A DNA stretch of 64,000 nucleotides from contig CABZRN010000001.1 of the NCBI GenBank assembly GCA_902528175.1, positions 1 through 64,000 of the forward strand, in the 5' to 3' direction. Below, in pieces: positions 37,382 through 47,308 of the stretch. The position numbers and the translations under genes are program-made. Source of the DNA: an uncultured Pelagibacteraceae bacterium. GTDB taxonomy: Bacteria; Pseudomonadota; Alphaproteobacteria; Pelagibacterales; Pelagibacteraceae. Position 1 is the stretch's first letter. Each line of letters starts with the position of its first letter. Below the pieces are notes generated by a model. That model was not told the origin of the DNA, searched no databases, and worked only from the letters and a program-made list of their open reading frames with translations.

Positions 37382-39277
37382 TTAATGAACTATTTTAGGT
37401 TTTAAACCAATAGATCCTAATGCTGAACCCGAATTATCTTCCTCAACTTTTAAGTCATCTTTATTAGGCGGATACACGTTTTTGTTAATTAAGTCCTCTA
37501 TTTCTGTACCAGTTAGAGTTTCATACACAAGAAGTGCTTTCGCCAATTTATGTAAATCCTCTATCTTTTCTTTAAGAATCTTTTTAGCTTTTTCATATCC
37601 CATGTCCACAAATCTTTTAATCTCAGCATCTACTTTTCTAGCTGTTTCTTCAGACATATTTTGTTGTCTAGCAACTGATCTACCAAGAAAAACCTCTTCT
37701 TCATTTTCTCCATAAAGTATTGGACCTAATTCTTTACTTAGTCCAGCTCTCATCACCATAGCTCTGGCTCTCTTTGTAGCTTGTTCAATATCACTAGAAG
37801 CTCCGGTTGTAACCTTGTCATCTCCAAAAATGATTTCCTCAGCTACCCTTCCTCCCATCGCAATTGCCATTTGAGCATGCAGTTGTTCTCTTGTTTGAGA
37901 TACTTCATCCCTCTCTGGTAGTTGCATCACCATTCCTAAAGCTCTTCCTCGCGGTATGATTGTTGCCTTGTGTATAGGATAGGCTGCTTTTTCATAAAGG
38001 GTTACAATAGCATGACCTGCTTCATGATAAGCGGTTAATTTTTTTTCTTCTTCTGTCATTACCATTGATCTTCTCTCAGCGCCCATCATAACTTTATCTT
38101 TTGCTTCTTCGAATTCTTGCGAAGTAACAATTCTTTTATTTTTACGTGCTGCTAAAAGAGCTGCTTCATTAACAAGATTTGCTAAATCTGCACCAGAAAA
38201 ACCCGGTGTCCCTCTCGCAACAGTCCTTAAATTTACATCAGGAGACATCGATATTTTTTTTGCATGTACTTTTAGAATTTTTTCTCTTCCAATGATATCT
38301 GGGTTAGAAACAACAACTTGTCTATCAAATCTTCCTGGCCTCAATAAAGCTGGGTCTAAAACGTCTGGTCTATTAGTAGCAGCAATAATTATTACTCCTT
38401 CATTTGTATCAAATCCATCCATCTCAACTAATAATTGGTTAAGTGTCTGTTCTCTTTCATCGTTACCACCACCTAAACCTGCTCCTCGACTTCTACCGAC
38501 TGCATCAATTTCATCTATAAAAATAATACAAGGAGAATGTTTTTTTCCTTGCTCAAACATATCTCTTACTCTTGACGCTCCAACTCCAACGAACATTTCG
38601 ACAAAATCTGATCCTGAAATTGTAAAAAACGGCACACCTGCTTCTCCAGCAATTGCTCTTGCAAGAAGAGTTTTACCGGTCCCCGGGGGTCCTACTAAAA
38701 GACATCCTCTAGGTATTTTACCTCCTAGTCTGCTAAATTTTTTTGGGTCCCTTAAAAATTCGACCACTTCCTCAACTTCTTCCTTTGCTTCTTCTACACC
38801 AGCAACGTCATTAAATGTAACTTTTCCCTTAACTTCATTCATCATTTTTGCCTTTGATCTCCCAAAACCCATTGCTCCACCTTTGCCACCTTGCATTTGT
38901 CTCATAAAGAAAATCCACACTGCTATTAAAAGTAACATTGGGAACCATGACAGAAGAACACCAAGAAGTGAGGGCATCTTTTCGTCTGTGGGAACGGCTG
39001 AAATACTGACTCCACTTTCAGATAACTTTTCTACTAAATTTGGATAATTTGCCGAGTATGTAGTAAAGCTTTTTCCATTTGCCATTACTCCCTTAATGTT
39101 ATTCCCTTGTATCTGGACCTCTACAACTCTTCCATTATCTACTTCCTTTAGAAATTCTGAAAAAATAATTTTCTCTTGTTTAACTGATTTTATGTTTTGC
39201 GGGTTCTTAAACATGTTATATAGCCCTATCGTCAAGACGACTATAATTGCCCACATTGCTAAGTTTTTAAAATTCAT
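37382..39277 (-). CDS. ftsH: ATP-dependent zinc metalloprotease FtsH
   Basis: Hexameric inner-membrane AAA protease that degrades RpoH and damaged membrane proteins in other bacteria. It has 631 residues. Two N-terminal membrane helices flank a periplasmic domain. Walker A is [21 protein letters not shown] near residue 193, Walker [14 protein letters not shown] near residue 253, the SRH follows with [18 protein letters not shown], and the zinc site is [10 protein letters not shown] near residue 415. The gene lies 64 bases after tilS and starts the folP-glmM-thiD-purA run. Confidence 0.97.
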
Positions 39278-41388: not shown

Positions 41389-41865
41389 TTAATTCGCTTT
41401 AACTGATACTGATCTTCTATTTTTTGACCATGCTAATGGATTTGATCCAGAGTCTACTGGTCTCTCTTTACCATAACTTATTACTGAAATTCTGTTTCCA
41501 GATATACCATAAGTCATTAAATAATCTTTTGCAGCATTAGCTCTTCTTTCACCTAAAGCAAGGTTATATTCTCTTGTTCCTCTTTCATCTGCATGACCTT
41601 CTAATACAACATTAATCTTTGAATTTTTTCTTAACCAAGCAGCTTGTTTTCTTAAAGTTTCTCTAGAAGCAGTTGTTAAGACTGACTCATTAGTTGCAAA
41701 GAAAACTCTGTCTGGAACTCCTGATGCTAGATATTCAACTGTATCTTTACCAGTGTAAACATCCCCTTGCATTTGGTTTGTTACTTTTTTTGTCGCACAT
41801 GCGGAAAGTATCAGTCCTGCAAATACAACTAAAAGGATGTTTTTAAAAATTTTGTTTAATTTCAT
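41389..41865 (-). CDS. pal: Peptidoglycan-associated lipoprotein
   Basis: Outer-membrane lipoprotein that binds peptidoglycan and the Tol complex. It has 158 residues. The lipobox is LILSACATKK with the lipidated cysteine near residue 23. The OmpA-like domain has FFATNESVLTTASRETLRKQAAWL near residue 54, VVLEGHADERGTREYNLALGERRA near residue 85 and SYGKERPVD near residue 130. A strong AAGGAG site precedes the ATG, and a terminator follows. The 98-base gap from tolB may hold its own promoter (a weak TTGATT/TATTTA pair). Confidence 0.96.
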   Translation of the reverse strand: MKLNKIFKNILLVVFAGLILSACATKKVTNQMQGDVYTGKDTVEYLASGVPDRVFFATNESVLTTASRETLRKQAAWLRKNSKINVVLEGHADERGTREYNLALGERRANAAKDYLMTYGISGNRISVISYGKERPVDSGSNPLAWSKNRRSVSVKAN

Positions 41866-41963
41866 TACTGCTCCTTAAATAAATTAATGTACTTTTTCAC
41901 AACTAAATAGATCTTTCAAGCTTAAAAATCAAGAATTTAGTAATTTTAGTAAATTTTTTATTA

Positions 41964-43313
41964 TTATTCACTTAATAATGATGACCAGGATGGGTCTGAA
42001 GCGTCGGTTTCAGTATCAACTAATCTCTCATTATATCCAGTTAAATCTATTGACCATAATTTTGCAGAAAACCCTTTTCCCTCAGAATCTGACTTTGTTT
42101 CCCTATAGAATATCAAAACTCGACCGTTGGGAGACCAAGATGGTGCCTCTTGGTAATAATTTTCTGTTAGCAGTCTTTCACCGCTTCCATCTACTCTCAT
42201 AACCCCAATGTAAAACTTGCCTTTATGAAGTTTAGTAAATGCTATTAAATCTCCTCTTGGAGACCAAACAGGAGTTCCATAAAGACCTTTGCCAAATGAA
42301 ATCCTTTTAACTTTAGTGCCATCACTTTTCATTACATAAATTTGTTGGTAACCGCTTCTATCGGAATTAAAACATATGTATTTGCCGTCTGGCGAAAATG
42401 AAGGTGAAGTATCTATTGAGGGATGATTGGTAATTTTTTCAACAATTCTATTTTCAAGATCCATGGTATATATTTCTGAGTTACCATCTTTTGCAAAACT
42501 CATAATTATTTTTTTTCCATCTGGAGAAAATCTCGGAGCAAAAGTCATTCCTGGAAAATCACCAACAACCTCTTGGACACCAGTTTCAATATCTAACAAA
42601 TATACTCTTGGTAAGTTTTTAAAATATGATAAGTAGGTAACCATTTGATTAGTTGGATTAAATCTTGGAGTTAATACTAACTCATTGCCTAATGTTAAAT
42701 ACTTTGCGTTATATCCGTCTTGATCCATTATTGCCAATTTCTTAACCCTATTAGTCTTTGGACCTTTCTCAGATACATAAATGATCCTAGTATCAAAATA
42801 ACCTTTTTCACCAGTTAATCTTTGGTAAACTTTATCTGTAATGATATGACCTACTCTTCTCCAGTTATCTGGTACTGTTGTAAAAGCTAAAGCCATCATT
42901 TCCTTGCCAGCAAGGACGTCCCATAATCTAAACTCAACTCTCAATTTTTCATTCTCATATTTAACTTCACCAGTAATTAAGGCTTGAGCTTTTATTAAAG
43001 TCCAATCCTCAAATCTAGGCTTCAAATGAGCTATGTCTGGGTTTTGAAGAAATGCTTCTCTTTTAAGAGGATTAAAAAGTCCAGAGGACTTTAAATTGTT
43101 TTCAACAACTGCAGAGATATCTTCCCCAATATTATCTATTTTTAATAAATTTTGGAAATCTTTAACTGACTTTGACTCAACAAATAAAGGTGATACTGCT
43201 ATTGGGAGTGGATTAAGGTTACCTCTAGTAATGTCAACCTCAATTAATCCAAATGAGGTTTTTGGTAGCAAAATTAATAATAATACAAATAAGTAAAATT
43301 TAGTTTTTTTCAT
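41964..43313 (-). CDS. tolB: Tol-Pal system beta-propeller protein TolB
   Basis: Periplasmic protein that contacts Pal and TolA. It has 449 residues. A signal peptide ([17 protein letters not shown]) is followed by a small N-terminal domain and a six-bladed propeller with repeats such as [36 protein letters not shown] and [14 protein letters not shown]. It overlaps tolA by four bases. Length and layout are normal. Confidence 0.96.
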
Positions 43314-44155
43314 CCTTTTAACATCTCTCTAGCATCAAAATTTAATTGAAGATCTTTCCATCTTTCGTATCCAGTTGAAGGCACTCTCAAAGGCTGGCAA
43401 AGCCTAATTGCCCTTAGAGCACTCTCAGCGAGCACTTTATAAAAACCTTGTCCAGGCTTATTCATTCTTGCGTGGTCTAAAATTTCAGAATTTATTACTG
43501 TTCCATCAGGCTTTAAACTTAATTTTATTCTTACTAATAAATTTTCATTATAAGGTAATCCAAGTGGGATACTCCAACATCCAAAAATCTGTGCTTTAAG
43601 TGCATCTTCCTCGCTTAGGGTTAAAGCGTTTAAAGTAATATTTTTTTGATTTGATTGAGTAATTTTATCAGTTTTGTTAATTGTTTCAGCTGATTCCTCT
43701 TTGGATTTATCAATTAACGCAGCAATATTGTTTGGGTCAAATAATTCATCTTTTTCAAATTCAGATACTTGTTTTACATTATCATCAATTTTTTCAGGAT
43801 TTTGAAAATCCTTTTCAGGTTTTTTGACTATATCTTGGTTTTGATCTGGTAATGGTATCGCATCAGGTTTTTCTTTTTTAACCTGTTTTGGTGGTGCTTG
43901 CTCTGATACTATTTTTTCTTTCTCTTTCACTTTCTCAATAATTTTTTTTGCTTTGGGTGCGAAAGGTATATTTGTTTTATCGGTAATTTGAATAAGCTCT
44001 ATAGATATTAGAGGAGGCAAATCTAAGGGTTTTTTTGCTATGAAAGGAAAAGTAAAAGCAGTTATAACAACTAAAAAAATATGCAATGCTGATGAAATCA
44101 CAATATTTTTTATCATTAACCTATCATCTTTATGTAAAAGAGTAATTAATTTCAT
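43310..44155 (-). CDS. tolA: TolA-like protein
   Basis: Inner-membrane anchored energy transducer reaching across the periplasm. It has 281 residues. One helix near the N-terminus ([20 protein letters not shown]) is followed by a Lys/Glu/Pro-rich middle ([23 protein letters not shown]) and a C-terminal TonB/TolA-like domain with [22 protein letters not shown] near residue 193. It is shorter than the E. coli protein and lacks its long Ala-rich helix. It lies between tolR and tolB with 4-base overlaps. Confidence 0.88.
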
Positions 44156-44568
44156 CTCTCTTTATAAGGTTCTGAAATTAAAGCTACTTTTGTAAAACCA
44201 GAACCTGACAACATGCCCATGACCTCAAGAACTCTTCCATAATTAATTGTTTTATCACCTCTAACGTAAATTCTTGTGTCTGTTCTATTTTTTGAAACTG
44301 CAAGTATTTTTGCAATCACATTATCATAATCAACTTTTGCTTCTTGAATAAAAATTTCACCTTTTGAATTAATTGTTAAAGTTAAAGGTTCTTGTTCCTC
44401 TGGTAATGAGTCTGCAGAGCTTTCTGGTAGATCAACCTGTACTCCAACTGTCAACAATGGAGCTGTAACCATAAACACAATTAATAAAACAAGCATAACA
44501 TCCACAAAGGGTGTAACATTTATTTCACTGATTGGTTCTTTAGAATTTTTTTTTAAACCAAAAGCCAT
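44152..44568 (-). CDS. tolR: Tol-Pal proton-channel protein TolR
   Basis: ExbD/TolR protein of 138 residues. A single helix carries the proton-conducting aspartate in INVTPFVDVMLVLLIVFMVTAPLL near residue 18. A periplasmic domain follows with VDLPESSADSLPEEQEPLTLTI. The gene is four bases after tolQ and overlaps tolA. It works with TolQ as the proton-driven motor. Confidence 0.95.
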   Translation of the reverse strand: MAFGLKKNSKEPISEINVTPFVDVMLVLLIVFMVTAPLLTVGVQVDLPESSADSLPEEQEPLTLTINSKGEIFIQEAKVDYDNVIAKILAVSKNRTDTRIYVRGDKTINYGRVLEVMGMLSGSGFTKVALISEPYKER

Positions 44569-44572
44569 AATT

Positions 44573-45247
44573 TCAAATTATAGATAAAAATCTTTTAGCA
44601 AAGTTTTCTAATCTTTGAGAATATTTTTTAGATTCGTTATTGAATTTATTATAAGCTACAACTGCAGGAATAGCAGCCAATAAACCTAATGCTGTTGCAA
44701 ATAATGCTTCGGCAATTCCTGGGGCAACAATCGCTAAACTAGTATTTCTTGAAACGGCTATCGATTGAAATGAATTCATTATACCCCAGACAGTTCCGAA
44801 TAAACCTATAAAGGGAGCTGTAGAGCCTACCGTAGCAAGAAATGAAAAATTTTTTTCTAAAAAATTTACTTCCGACTCTATATTTGACTCTAATAAACCA
44901 GTTAATTTTTCGTTTAGATTACTCCTAGATCTAGATTTTAGAACAACTTGCATAGTTTTTCTAAAAACATTAGACATGGGATCATCTTTATTTACTGGAA
45001 GATTGTTATAAAAACTTTCAGCAGATTTAGATTTCCAAAATTTTTCTTCAAATTCAACAGTGCTTTGATTTATTTTTTTAAACATTTTAAATTTTTCTAT
45101 AATTATTGCCCATGAGTATATTGATGCAACTATTAGTAAGATAATAACTGATTTAACCACGATGTCCGCTCTTAAGAACAAACTCATTAAAGAAAAATCA
45201 ACTGCGCTACCTAAGCCAACTGCTTGAGAAGTAATATCTGCTTCCAT
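44573..45247 (-). CDS. tolQ: Tol-Pal proton-channel protein TolQ
   Basis: ExbB/TolQ protein of 224 residues with three membrane helices. FLRADIVVKSVIILLIVASIYSWAIIIEK is the first. LATVGSTAPFIGLFGTVWGIMNSF near residue 135 and GIAEALFATALGLLAAIPAVVAYNKF near residue 178 are the family signature. It is first gene of tolQRAB-pal. The ybgC gene usually found upstream is absent here and a RuvC-like gene is next instead. Confidence 0.95.
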   Translation of the reverse strand: MEADITSQAVGLGSAVDFSLMSLFLRADIVVKSVIILLIVASIYSWAIIIEKFKMFKKINQSTVEFEEKFWKSKSAESFYNNLPVNKDDPMSNVFRKTMQVVLKSRSRSNLNEKLTGLLESNIESEVNFLEKNFSFLATVGSTAPFIGLFGTVWGIMNSFQSIAVSRNTSLAIVAPGIAEALFATALGLLAAIPAVVAYNKFNNESKKYSQRLENFAKRFLSII

Positions 45248-45285: not shown

Positions 45286-45774
45286 TTAATTTTTTTGGTT
45301 TTGGTAGTAAAAGCTAGCAATTAATATTGCATCAGCTTTATTGGCATCTTTCTTTCTTGATAATTTTGTTGATATGTAAGGAAAAAACTCTATTGCTTTA
45401 GTTCTACTGGAATCTTTCTGAGTATTTATAAGATTATAATATTTTTTCCATTTTACTGGCGAAATGAAGTCCATTGGTATTTGCATCGCAGAAAATATAC
45501 CCTTTAGTACACCAAAAGATTGACCAAAATTAAACATACTTGTAACTCCTTGACCAGGCATTGCGGAAACTTGCTCTATTACAACTTTTATATCTTTTTT
45601 GTCTTCATTAATTATCGCTTTTTGGATTTCATTATAGATCTGTGAGCCATTAACTTGGGACTTATTTTTTTTTCCAACAGGCATTATTGGCATATCAAAT
45701 ACATCTAAAATTTTTCCATCTCTAAAAATGCATATAGCTCCTTTTATTCCTGGATCTATTCCTATAATTAACAT
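45286..45774 (-). CDS. RuvC-like Holliday-junction resolvase of the phage-related type
   Basis: 162-residue RNase H-fold nuclease expected to cut four-way DNA junctions. Acidic catalytic residues are visible as D7 (IIGIDPGI), E67 (VVIEQVSAMPGQG) and D143/D148 (KKDANKADAILIAS). The block EQVSAMPGQGVTSMFNFGQSFGV is typical of phage-type RuvC-like proteins rather than E. coli RuvC. It sits between tolQ and yebC, where Alphaproteobacteria have ruvC-ruvA-ruvB-ybgC, but ruvA, ruvB and ybgC are missing from this spot. It may have replaced the standard ruvC. Confidence 0.75.
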   Translation of the reverse strand: MLIIGIDPGIKGAICIFRDGKILDVFDMPIMPVGKKNKSQVNGSQIYNEIQKAIINEDKKDIKVVIEQVSAMPGQGVTSMFNFGQSFGVLKGIFSAMQIPMDFISPVKWKKYYNLINTQKDSSRTKAIEFFPYISTKLSRKKDANKADAILIASFYYQNQKN

Positions 45775-45777
45775 CTT

Positions 45778-46500
45778 CTATTCCAACATTTCTATGTTTG
45801 AGTAAACTTTTTGGACATCATCTTGATCCTCTAAAGTTTCTAAGAATTTCTGAGATTCTAAAAATTGCTCTTTACTTAGATTAACTTTATTAAAAGGATA
45901 CCATTCTATATTTGTCGACAAAAAATTAGTAATTTTTTTTTCCATAATTTTTTTCACATCATAGATATGTTCTTTATTGCAATGTATTTCATGAAAAGTC
46001 TTATTTGAAAAACACTCGTCCGCTCCAGAATTTATTGCAATTTCTAGTACATTCTCATCATCTATTTGTTCAGAGTCCACTCTTATAATTCCAACCTGTT
46101 TAAAATTATGTGCGGCTGAACCTTGGGTTCCTAAGTTTCCACCACTTTTTTGAAAAATTTCTCTTATTTTTGACGCTGTTCTGTTTTTATTATCTGTTAA
46201 TGCCTCTACAATTACAGCAATTTTATAATTTCCAAATCCCTCGTATCTTATCTCATCAAAGTTGGACTGATCATTAAATTTTGATTTATCAATAGCTCTA
46301 TCAATATTATCTTTAGGCATATTTGCTGATCTTGCAGCTTGAATAGCAGATCTTAATCTATGGTTCATATCAGGATCTTTATCGCCTAACTTAGCTGCAA
46401 CAGTAATTTCTCTAGACAACTTTGAAAAAATTTTTGACCTCTCTTTATCTGCTCTCCCTTTTTTATGTTTAATTCCGGCCCAGTGTGAATGTCCCGCCAT
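45778..46500 (-). CDS. yebC: YebC/PmpR (TACO1) family protein
   Basis: Family members act as transcription regulators or, in mitochondria and some bacteria, help translation through proline stretches. About 240 residues from MAGHSHWAGIKHKKGRADKERSKIF, the universal N-terminus. The tracked ORF starts eight codons earlier, inside the ymdB-like gene, and is rejected. Other motifs are RSAIQAARSANMPKDNIDRAI near residue 55 and GGNLGTQGSAAHNF near residue 120. It lies just upstream of the RuvC-like gene, as yebC-ruvC commonly do. Confidence 0.94.
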   Translation of the reverse strand: MAGHSHWAGIKHKKGRADKERSKIFSKLSREITVAAKLGDKDPDMNHRLRSAIQAARSANMPKDNIDRAIDKSKFNDQSNFDEIRYEGFGNYKIAVIVEALTDNKNRTASKIREIFQKSGGNLGTQGSAAHNFKQVGIIRVDSEQIDDENVLEIAINSGADECFSNKTFHEIHCNKEHIYDVKKIMEKKITNFLSTNIEWYPFNKVNLSKEQFLESQKFLETLEDQDDVQKVYSNIEMLE

Positions 46501-46501
46501 A

Positions 46502-47308
46502 TCAATTAGTGTTTTGGAGAACACCTCCCATTATAAAACTATTTATTTTCTTAGCTAAACCTGTTTCTTTACAACAATCAACTATTACTCCTGATAAAGT
46601 TCCTTCTCCTAAAGACGGAAAATGTTTTTCAGTTTTTTTTTTGAAAAATTTATTTATAGAATTATCTTTATTCATGCCTATTACAGAGTCGTAATCGCCA
46701 CACATTCCAGAATCTGTTATATATGCAGAACCTTTTTTTAAAATTCTTGCATCATTTGTTGGAACATGTGTATGAGTACCTGTTATCAATGTTGCCTTAC
46801 CATCAAATAAATGACCAATTGCCATTTTCTCACTTGTTATTTCACCATGAAAGTCAACTACTAAAAAATCATAATTTTTTTTTAAATCGTAATTGTTTAA
46901 AAATTTTTCTATATCTATAAAAACATCATCACATTTCTTCATAAAAACATTTCCCATCAAATTTAATACGCCGATTTTGAAATTGTTTTTACTAGAAAAA
47001 ATTTCAAAACCTTTCCCAGGAGAAGGACCAGTAAGGTTATAAGGTCTTAAAAGTTTTTTTTCTTTCTCAATATGTTCGGCAGTTTCTTTTTGGTCCCATA
47101 CATGGTTTCCAGTAGTCAAAACATCAATTCCACAACTAAATAATTCTTTAGAAATTTTTTCAGTTATACCTAATCCACTATCTGCTGCATTTTCGCCATT
47201 GGCAACTACAAAATCTAAATGTCTTTTTTTAATTATATCCGGTAAAAACTTTTTAACAACATTACAGCCAGAAGGTCCAACGATATCTCCAAGAAAAAGT
47301 ATTCTCAT
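46502..47308 (-). CDS. YmdB-family metallophosphoesterase
   Basis: 268-residue calcineurin-like phosphoesterase; Bacillus YmdB cleaves 2',3'-cyclic nucleotides. Metal-binding motifs are ILFLGDIVGPSG at residue 3, VANGENAADSGLGIT near residue 35, TTGNHVWDQKE near residue 66, DFHGEITSEK near residue 152 and GTHTHVPTNDARIL near residue 176. It is one base from yebC and overlaps the cyclo-ligase gene by four. Its biological role here is unknown. Confidence 0.88.
   Translation of the reverse strand: MRILFLGDIVGPSGCNVVKKFLPDIIKKRHLDFVVANGENAADSGLGITEKISKELFSCGIDVLTTGNHVWDQKETAEHIEKEKKLLRPYNLTGPSPGKGFEIFSSKNNFKIGVLNLMGNVFMKKCDDVFIDIEKFLNNYDLKKNYDFLVVDFHGEITSEKMAIGHLFDGKATLITGTHTHVPTNDARILKKGSAYITDSGMCGDYDSVIGMNKDNSINKFFKKKTEKHFPSLGEGTLSGVIVDCCKETGLAKKINSFIMGGVLQNTN

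Follow-up and report, generated by a model that had tools for sequence, protein, structure and literature searches.

The window is a stretch of 64,000 nucleotides from an uncultured Pelagibacteraceae bacterium (contig CABZRN010000001.1). It carries the gene order zapA-fthC-ymdB-yebC-resolvase-tolQ-tolR-tolA-tolB-pal-cpoB, in which the interval between yebC and tolQ holds a single 162-aa ORF that begins with ATG; a gap of 3 nt divides it from yebC upstream and one of 38 nt from tolQ downstream. The genes ruvA, ruvB and ybgC are absent from this interval, and inspection of the ORFs agrees with an original prediction, made from the sequence alone, that only one RuvC-like protein of 162 residues lies there. 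The features of the locus are:

45286–45774, minus strand: predicted MOC1/phage-type RuvC-like Holliday-junction resolvase, 162 aa, in the ruvCAB slot (ORF, phrog_1770, MOC1 match, AF2/Foldseek)
45778–46524, minus strand: yebC, upstream flank of the slot (TIGR01033, 276 bits), with a probable start at the ATG at 46500 (MAGHS)
44573–45247, minus strand: tolQ, downstream flank of the slot (ORF list and locus comparison)
41389–44568, minus strand: tolR-tolA-tolB-pal, conserved operon downstream (ORF list and locus comparison)

A Pfam scan of the 162-aa protein gave no match to PF02075 (RuvC), and its score against the NCBIfam RuvC model NF000711 was 16.6 bits (cut-off 163). PHROG 1770, a family of phage Holliday junction resolvases, matched over its full length (E 1e-36, positions 4–151 of 158). 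Among proteins of solved structure, MOC1 was the best relative by sequence (E 1e-13 with the single sequence, E 1e-31 with a profile), and bacterial RuvC structures were at the edge of detection in the same comparison. The record of one phage relative is itself annotated as cd22992 MOC1. The protein belongs to the MOC1-type resolvases of phages and chloroplasts, an already known family, and is not a canonical RuvC; its earlier description as a phage-type RuvC is borne out by the PHROG 1770 match and by a tree (below) that groups it with phage and MOC1 proteins.

An AlphaFold2 model was built from 44 family sequences (pLDDT 90.9) and compared with solved structures using Foldseek. TM-scores to MOC1 structures were 0.79–0.88, with an rmsd of about 2 Å, and those to RuvC structures were 0.5–0.66 (maximum 0.66, query-normalised; E 1e-7 to 1e-5). 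The modelled fold is RNase H-like, a fold common to RuvC. Equivalents were predicted for the catalytic tetrad of NtMOC1 (D116, E175, D253 and E258; PMC7078210) and for the catalytic lysine of ZmMOC1 (K229; PMC11183143). Conservation was counted across 68 distinct Pelagibacteraceae family sequences, wherever a position was covered:

45754–45756, minus strand: codon of predicted catalytic Asp7 (NtMOC1 D116), from the MOC1 alignment, invariant wherever covered
45574–45576, minus strand: codon of predicted catalytic Glu67 (NtMOC1 E175), invariant in 68/68
45415–45417, minus strand: codon of predicted catalytic Lys120 (ZmMOC1 K229), invariant in 68/68
45346–45348, minus strand: codon of predicted catalytic Asp143 (NtMOC1 D253), invariant in 67/67
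45331–45333, minus strand: codon of predicted catalytic Asp148 (NtMOC1 E258), invariant in 67/67

The third-metal ligand ZmMOC1 H253 is not essential in MOC1, and its replacement (H253A) lowers activity less than K229A or D115N (PMC11183143). It is unmatched in the resolvase, being A144 in the window and S, V, T, G or N elsewhere in the family (mostly A, S or V overall), and NtMOC1 D183, a BR-loop residue involved in cytosine recognition, aligns with Q75. Going by these two substitutions, the third-metal chemistry and catalysis, as well as the sequence preference, may differ from those of MOC1. The gene is under strong purifying selection, with dN/dS values between the window and close relatives of 0.01–0.04 (about 0.02).

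The resolvase is encoded in 136 of the 197 Pelagibacterales genomes, which include members of all six genera of Pelagibacteraceae and none of the sister family within the order (f2), and a search with the PHROG 1770 profile gives the same picture. It is single-copy in Pelagibacteraceae, and in every contiguous locus examined it occupies the same yebC-(ybgC-)tolQ slot. True absence of the gene from a few Pelagibacteraceae genomes was ruled out: six of these also lack yebC and two (G123 and G097) have yebC at a contig end, so the absences are assembly gaps. A broken copy in G137 was similarly rejected as an assembly error, since tolQ, tolR and tolB next to it are likewise disrupted. Between the resolvase and tolQ, ybgC is kept in three genera (g2, g3 and g4; loci L114, L115, L116 and L124 carry it) and lost in the other three (g1, g5 and g6; L117–L120, L123 and L125 are without it), so that the loss of ybgC noted in the original prediction holds for the window and for some genera but does not extend to g2, g3 and g4. 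The occurrence of the ORF in 136 genomes, together with its low dN/dS, marks it as a real gene and not a chance reading frame. The presence of the resolvase is a family-wide and ancient trait, not one special to the window's genome.

The assembly containing the window (G000; 763 kb, 28 contigs) is 62% complete, so that gene absences rest on complete relatives; the nearest named relatives of this genome are single-cell genomes of uncultured Pelagibacteraceae. None of 197 Pelagibacterales genomes, a set in which 149 are ≥90% complete, has RuvB above the cut-off, and RuvA was found in none of 42; the RuvA search was positive in all six control alphaproteobacteria. The canonical RuvC model TIGR00228 matched 8 of 14 control genomes and none of 30 Pelagibacterales genomes, complete ones included, and so a standard ruvABC set was not found elsewhere either. 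With scores below all curated cut-offs and no RuvA or RuvB partner genes, the 162-aa protein falls outside canonical RuvC. It had also been supposed that relatives keep ruvC-ruvA-ruvB-ybgC at this position, which is correct for distant alphaproteobacteria such as control genome G316, where these four genes make up the yebC-tolQ interval, but for no Pelagibacterales genome tested.

Weak RuvB matches (about 20–35 bits, for example at 38594–38707 of the window) fall within AAA+ reading frames whose lengths differ from that of RuvB and were rejected; these frames appear to be FtsH-, DnaX- and ClpX-sized. Weak RuvA matches (18 bits, positions 109–137, frames of about 200 aa) were also discarded, and fit the helix-hairpin-helix of RecR, an identity suggested by their position and size; one of them adjoins a dnaX-like match on contig 5 of G000. 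RecG is present in nearly all Pelagibacterales genomes searched, and a search of the window's own genome, as had been proposed, located it on contig 15 (3942–5795, 634 bits). In f2 genomes an Mfd-like helicase adjoins recG (>370 bits; e.g., G006, contig 11, 3367–4587). The recG search gave no comparable second match in the Pelagibacteraceae genomes searched, and mfd may be absent from this family.

RuvB scores above the cut-off in 299 of 337 alphaproteobacteria, and several families without it were inspected at yebC. In f2, a protein of 123–127 aa lies between yebC and tolQ in all six loci examined (L108–L113, L108 being that of G002). Two of these proteins were scanned and matched Pfam PDDEXK_15 (33.7 and 32.0 bits, cut-off 27), and comparison with PHROG 244 gave E 2e-20, which indicates a predicted PD-(D/E)XK-type phage resolvase and no RuvC at this position. 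Of 23 f2 genomes tested, 20 encode the protein and the remaining three are 54–74% complete; no Pelagibacteraceae genome tested has it. Outside the Pelagibacterales, the RuvAB-less family f119 (G313, L357) carries a second, divergent MOC1-type protein followed by ybgC-tolQ, with 30% identity to the Pelagibacteraceae resolvase and a PHROG 1770 match (E 8e-22). The slot of families f25, f32 and f142 (L345, L346 and L349–L353) holds a protein of 97–122 aa that has no meaningful Pfam match and matches PHROG 2002, another Holliday junction resolvase family (E 2e-6, 8.5e-8 and 2.5e-10); one of these proteins is 47% identical to a DNA endonuclease of a Bacteroides phage. In f51 (L347 and L348), the gene after yebC encodes a 168-aa PDDEXK_15 protein (77 bits), tilS and ftsH (named by eye) come next, and the tol-pal operon is missing from the locus. 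Canonical RuvC is retained in f109 (G303, L361), where it stands alone in the slot, and in G213 (L359), with no RuvB (or RuvA) above the cut-off in either genome; these two genomes possibly represent an intermediate stage. At the f108 locus (G406, L355:1645–3799), yebC and ybgC are separated by 2.15 kb of 25% GC with no ORF longer than 80 aa on the coding strand, a gap about as long as ruvCAB in which no trace of a Ruv gene could be detected.

The slot proteins of f2 show remote similarity to those of f25/f32/f142 (hhalign E 5e-5, probability 66%), and both groups may descend from a single PD-(D/E)XK ancestor. A tree of the flanking genes joins Pelagibacteraceae with f2 (100/100), f32 with f142 (100/100) and f25 with f119 (99/99), and thus unlike resolvases occupy sister families. 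Judged by the predicted folds, which are MOC1-type RNase H in Pelagibacteraceae and f119 and PD-(D/E)XK in f2, f25/f32/f142 and f51, one chromosomal slot houses at least two resolvase folds. We think it likely that yebC-X-(ybgC)-tolQ is a fixed resolvase slot, and that in alphaproteobacteria lacking RuvAB the native ruvCAB gave way there, more than once, to stand-alone resolvases of phage type that represent two or more unrelated folds.

In the resolvase tree, from which the loci L136–L139 of other alphaproteobacteria were left out in the final version because they yielded no usable proteins, the Pelagibacteraceae proteins group in a single clade (100/97), and the branching inside it largely tracks the genera; the gene has probably been inherited vertically within the family, and the replacement is old and common to the whole family. 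A branch with 100/100 support parts the Pelagibacteraceae, phage and MOC1 proteins from canonical alphaproteobacterial RuvC, so that the protein is not placed within ordinary bacterial RuvC. Approximately unbiased (AU) tests rejected none of the groupings of the Pelagibacteraceae proteins with f119, with canonical RuvC (p 0.29) or with plant MOC1, and the root is not fixed; origin and order of events are accordingly not claimed from the tree. The nearest relatives outside the family, at 36–48% identity, are proteins of environmental viruses and of phages infecting hosts as different as Salmonella, Microcystis, Pseudomonas and Stenotrophomonas; Caulobacter phages and others carry more distant ones. 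No cultured pelagiphage was seen among the phage relatives listed. A viral scan with the single sequence found no relative, and a profile-based scan found the phage proteins. This distribution makes transfer from phage to host the likeliest reading of the origin. The suggestion that a viral gene had replaced the native one is thereby upheld as far as a phage-type enzyme in the ruv slot is concerned, while the direction of transfer comes from the distribution, the AU tests leaving the root unfixed.

It is highly probable, in our judgment, that the product of this gene serves Pelagibacteraceae as their chromosomal Holliday-junction resolvase, a RuvAB-independent enzyme of the MOC1/phage-RuvC family that replaced ruvC-ruvA-ruvB in or before the family ancestor. 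The enzyme would be a metal-dependent endonuclease of RNase H fold, probably acting as a dimer on the junction, and would by itself nick two opposing strands of the four-way junction with no RuvAB motor, branch migration being supplied by RecG. It would have taken the place of ruvC-ruvA-ruvB, from yebC to ybgC-tolQ, in or before the common ancestor and then descended vertically. Once the RuvAB motor was lost, RuvC would no longer be tied to a partner, and any RecG-compatible phage resolvase could take the slot. The dimer, junction cleavage, independence of RuvAB, cooperation with RecG and phage origin are proposed by analogy with the biochemistry of MOC1 and phage RuvC; for example, an E. coli ruvABC deletion strain becomes UV-resistant again when given the RuvC of phage bIL67 (PMC3864405). 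Should a further, as yet unrecognised enzyme process the junctions, the part played by this resolvase could be a subsidiary one.

An alternative is that the native alphaproteobacterial RuvC stayed in place and diverged quickly once RuvAB was lost, its phage likeness reflecting capture by phages from the host, or convergence. Position and orientation do match those of native ruvC, G303 and G213 offer a possible intermediate in keeping canonical RuvC without RuvAB, and the AU test leaves a grouping with RuvC unrejected (p 0.29). We nevertheless regard this as improbable, given the 36–48% identity to proteins of phages with very diverse hosts, a score of just 16.6 bits to canonical RuvC (cut-off 163) with no TIGR00228 match, and a TM-score of the model of 0.88 to MOC1 as against 0.5–0.66 to RuvC; in addition, the slot of f2 holds a non-homologous nuclease, indicating that replacement does happen there. 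A second alternative, that the gene is left over from a phage or travels as a selfish passenger while RecG alone or YqgF handles the Holliday junctions of SAR11, seems very unlikely. The relatives of the resolvase are mostly phage genes, RecG is present, and some genera have weak secondary matches in a YqgF-sized protein, presumably YqgF, but no phage genes lie nearby and the housekeeping neighbors are conserved in all genera. Strong purifying selection and near-universal presence also speak against a passenger, which would leave unexplained the other resolvase families at the same spot in sister families. A resolvase role for YqgF was undemonstrated as of a 2005 survey (PMC1193525).

Several known systems resemble the replacement enzyme that we favor. 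MOC1 of plant chloroplasts is closest in both sequence (E 1e-31, profile) and structure (TM 0.88) and shares the catalytic tetrad and the K229 equivalent, but identity is about 25%, ZmMOC1 D117 corresponds to G9, D183 to Q75 and H253 mostly to A, S or V, and MOC1 is a chloroplast enzyme whereas the Pelagibacteraceae resolvase is encoded on a bacterial chromosome. MOC1 works in a compartment for which we know of no RuvAB partner. The phage resolvases of PHROG 1770 (epsilon15, PaV-LD and Microcystis phage Mwe-JY08) share 36–48% identity over most of their length and an AMPGQG motif; their genes occur in varied phage contexts, and that of Pelagibacteraceae is vertically inherited at a housekeeping locus. 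The RuvC of Lactococcus phage bIL67 (4ktw) has an RNase H fold like that modelled here and acts in E. coli without RuvABC (PMC3864405), but belongs to a separate phage RuvC branch (E 0.62 by sequence, TM 0.58–0.62). Canonical RuvC of the RuvABC complex shares the fold, the acidic active site and the position adjoining yebC with the resolvase, which differs in scoring below the curated cut-offs and in having no RuvA or RuvB partner.

SAR11 ranks with the most abundant groups of bacteria. In 2012, Viklund et al. reportedly described Ca. Pelagibacter ubique as having lost mutLS, recFN and ruvABC. The loss in SAR11 of ruvABC, which encodes the usual machinery for completing DNA recombination, was thus previously known, and it left junction resolution unexplained. 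RuvAB is near universal in bacteria; a conserved, stand-alone enzyme of phage/chloroplast type at the ruv position supplies an answer for SAR11. Neither the replacement gene nor the slot was described in the papers searchable for this analysis, and the repeated replacement in place appears to be new. Very high homologous recombination in SAR11 is reported in work cited in PMC4298764, and the takeover of the slot, if true, would explain how this heavy recombination proceeds without RuvABC. Different folds at the same position in sister families would be a clear example of a core repair complex being replaced at its own locus more than once, and the resolvases would probably have come from phages. 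In the 2005 survey, just two of the genomes that contain RecA lacked RuvAB; both had RecG, and the authors remarked that prophage-encoded proteins might perform resolution (PMC1193525). Aquifex aeolicus and Wigglesworthia (PMC1193525) contain RecA, lack RuvAB and keep RecG, as does SAR11; in the present case, however, a whole free-living order is RuvAB-less and replacement resolvases sit in the ruv slot.
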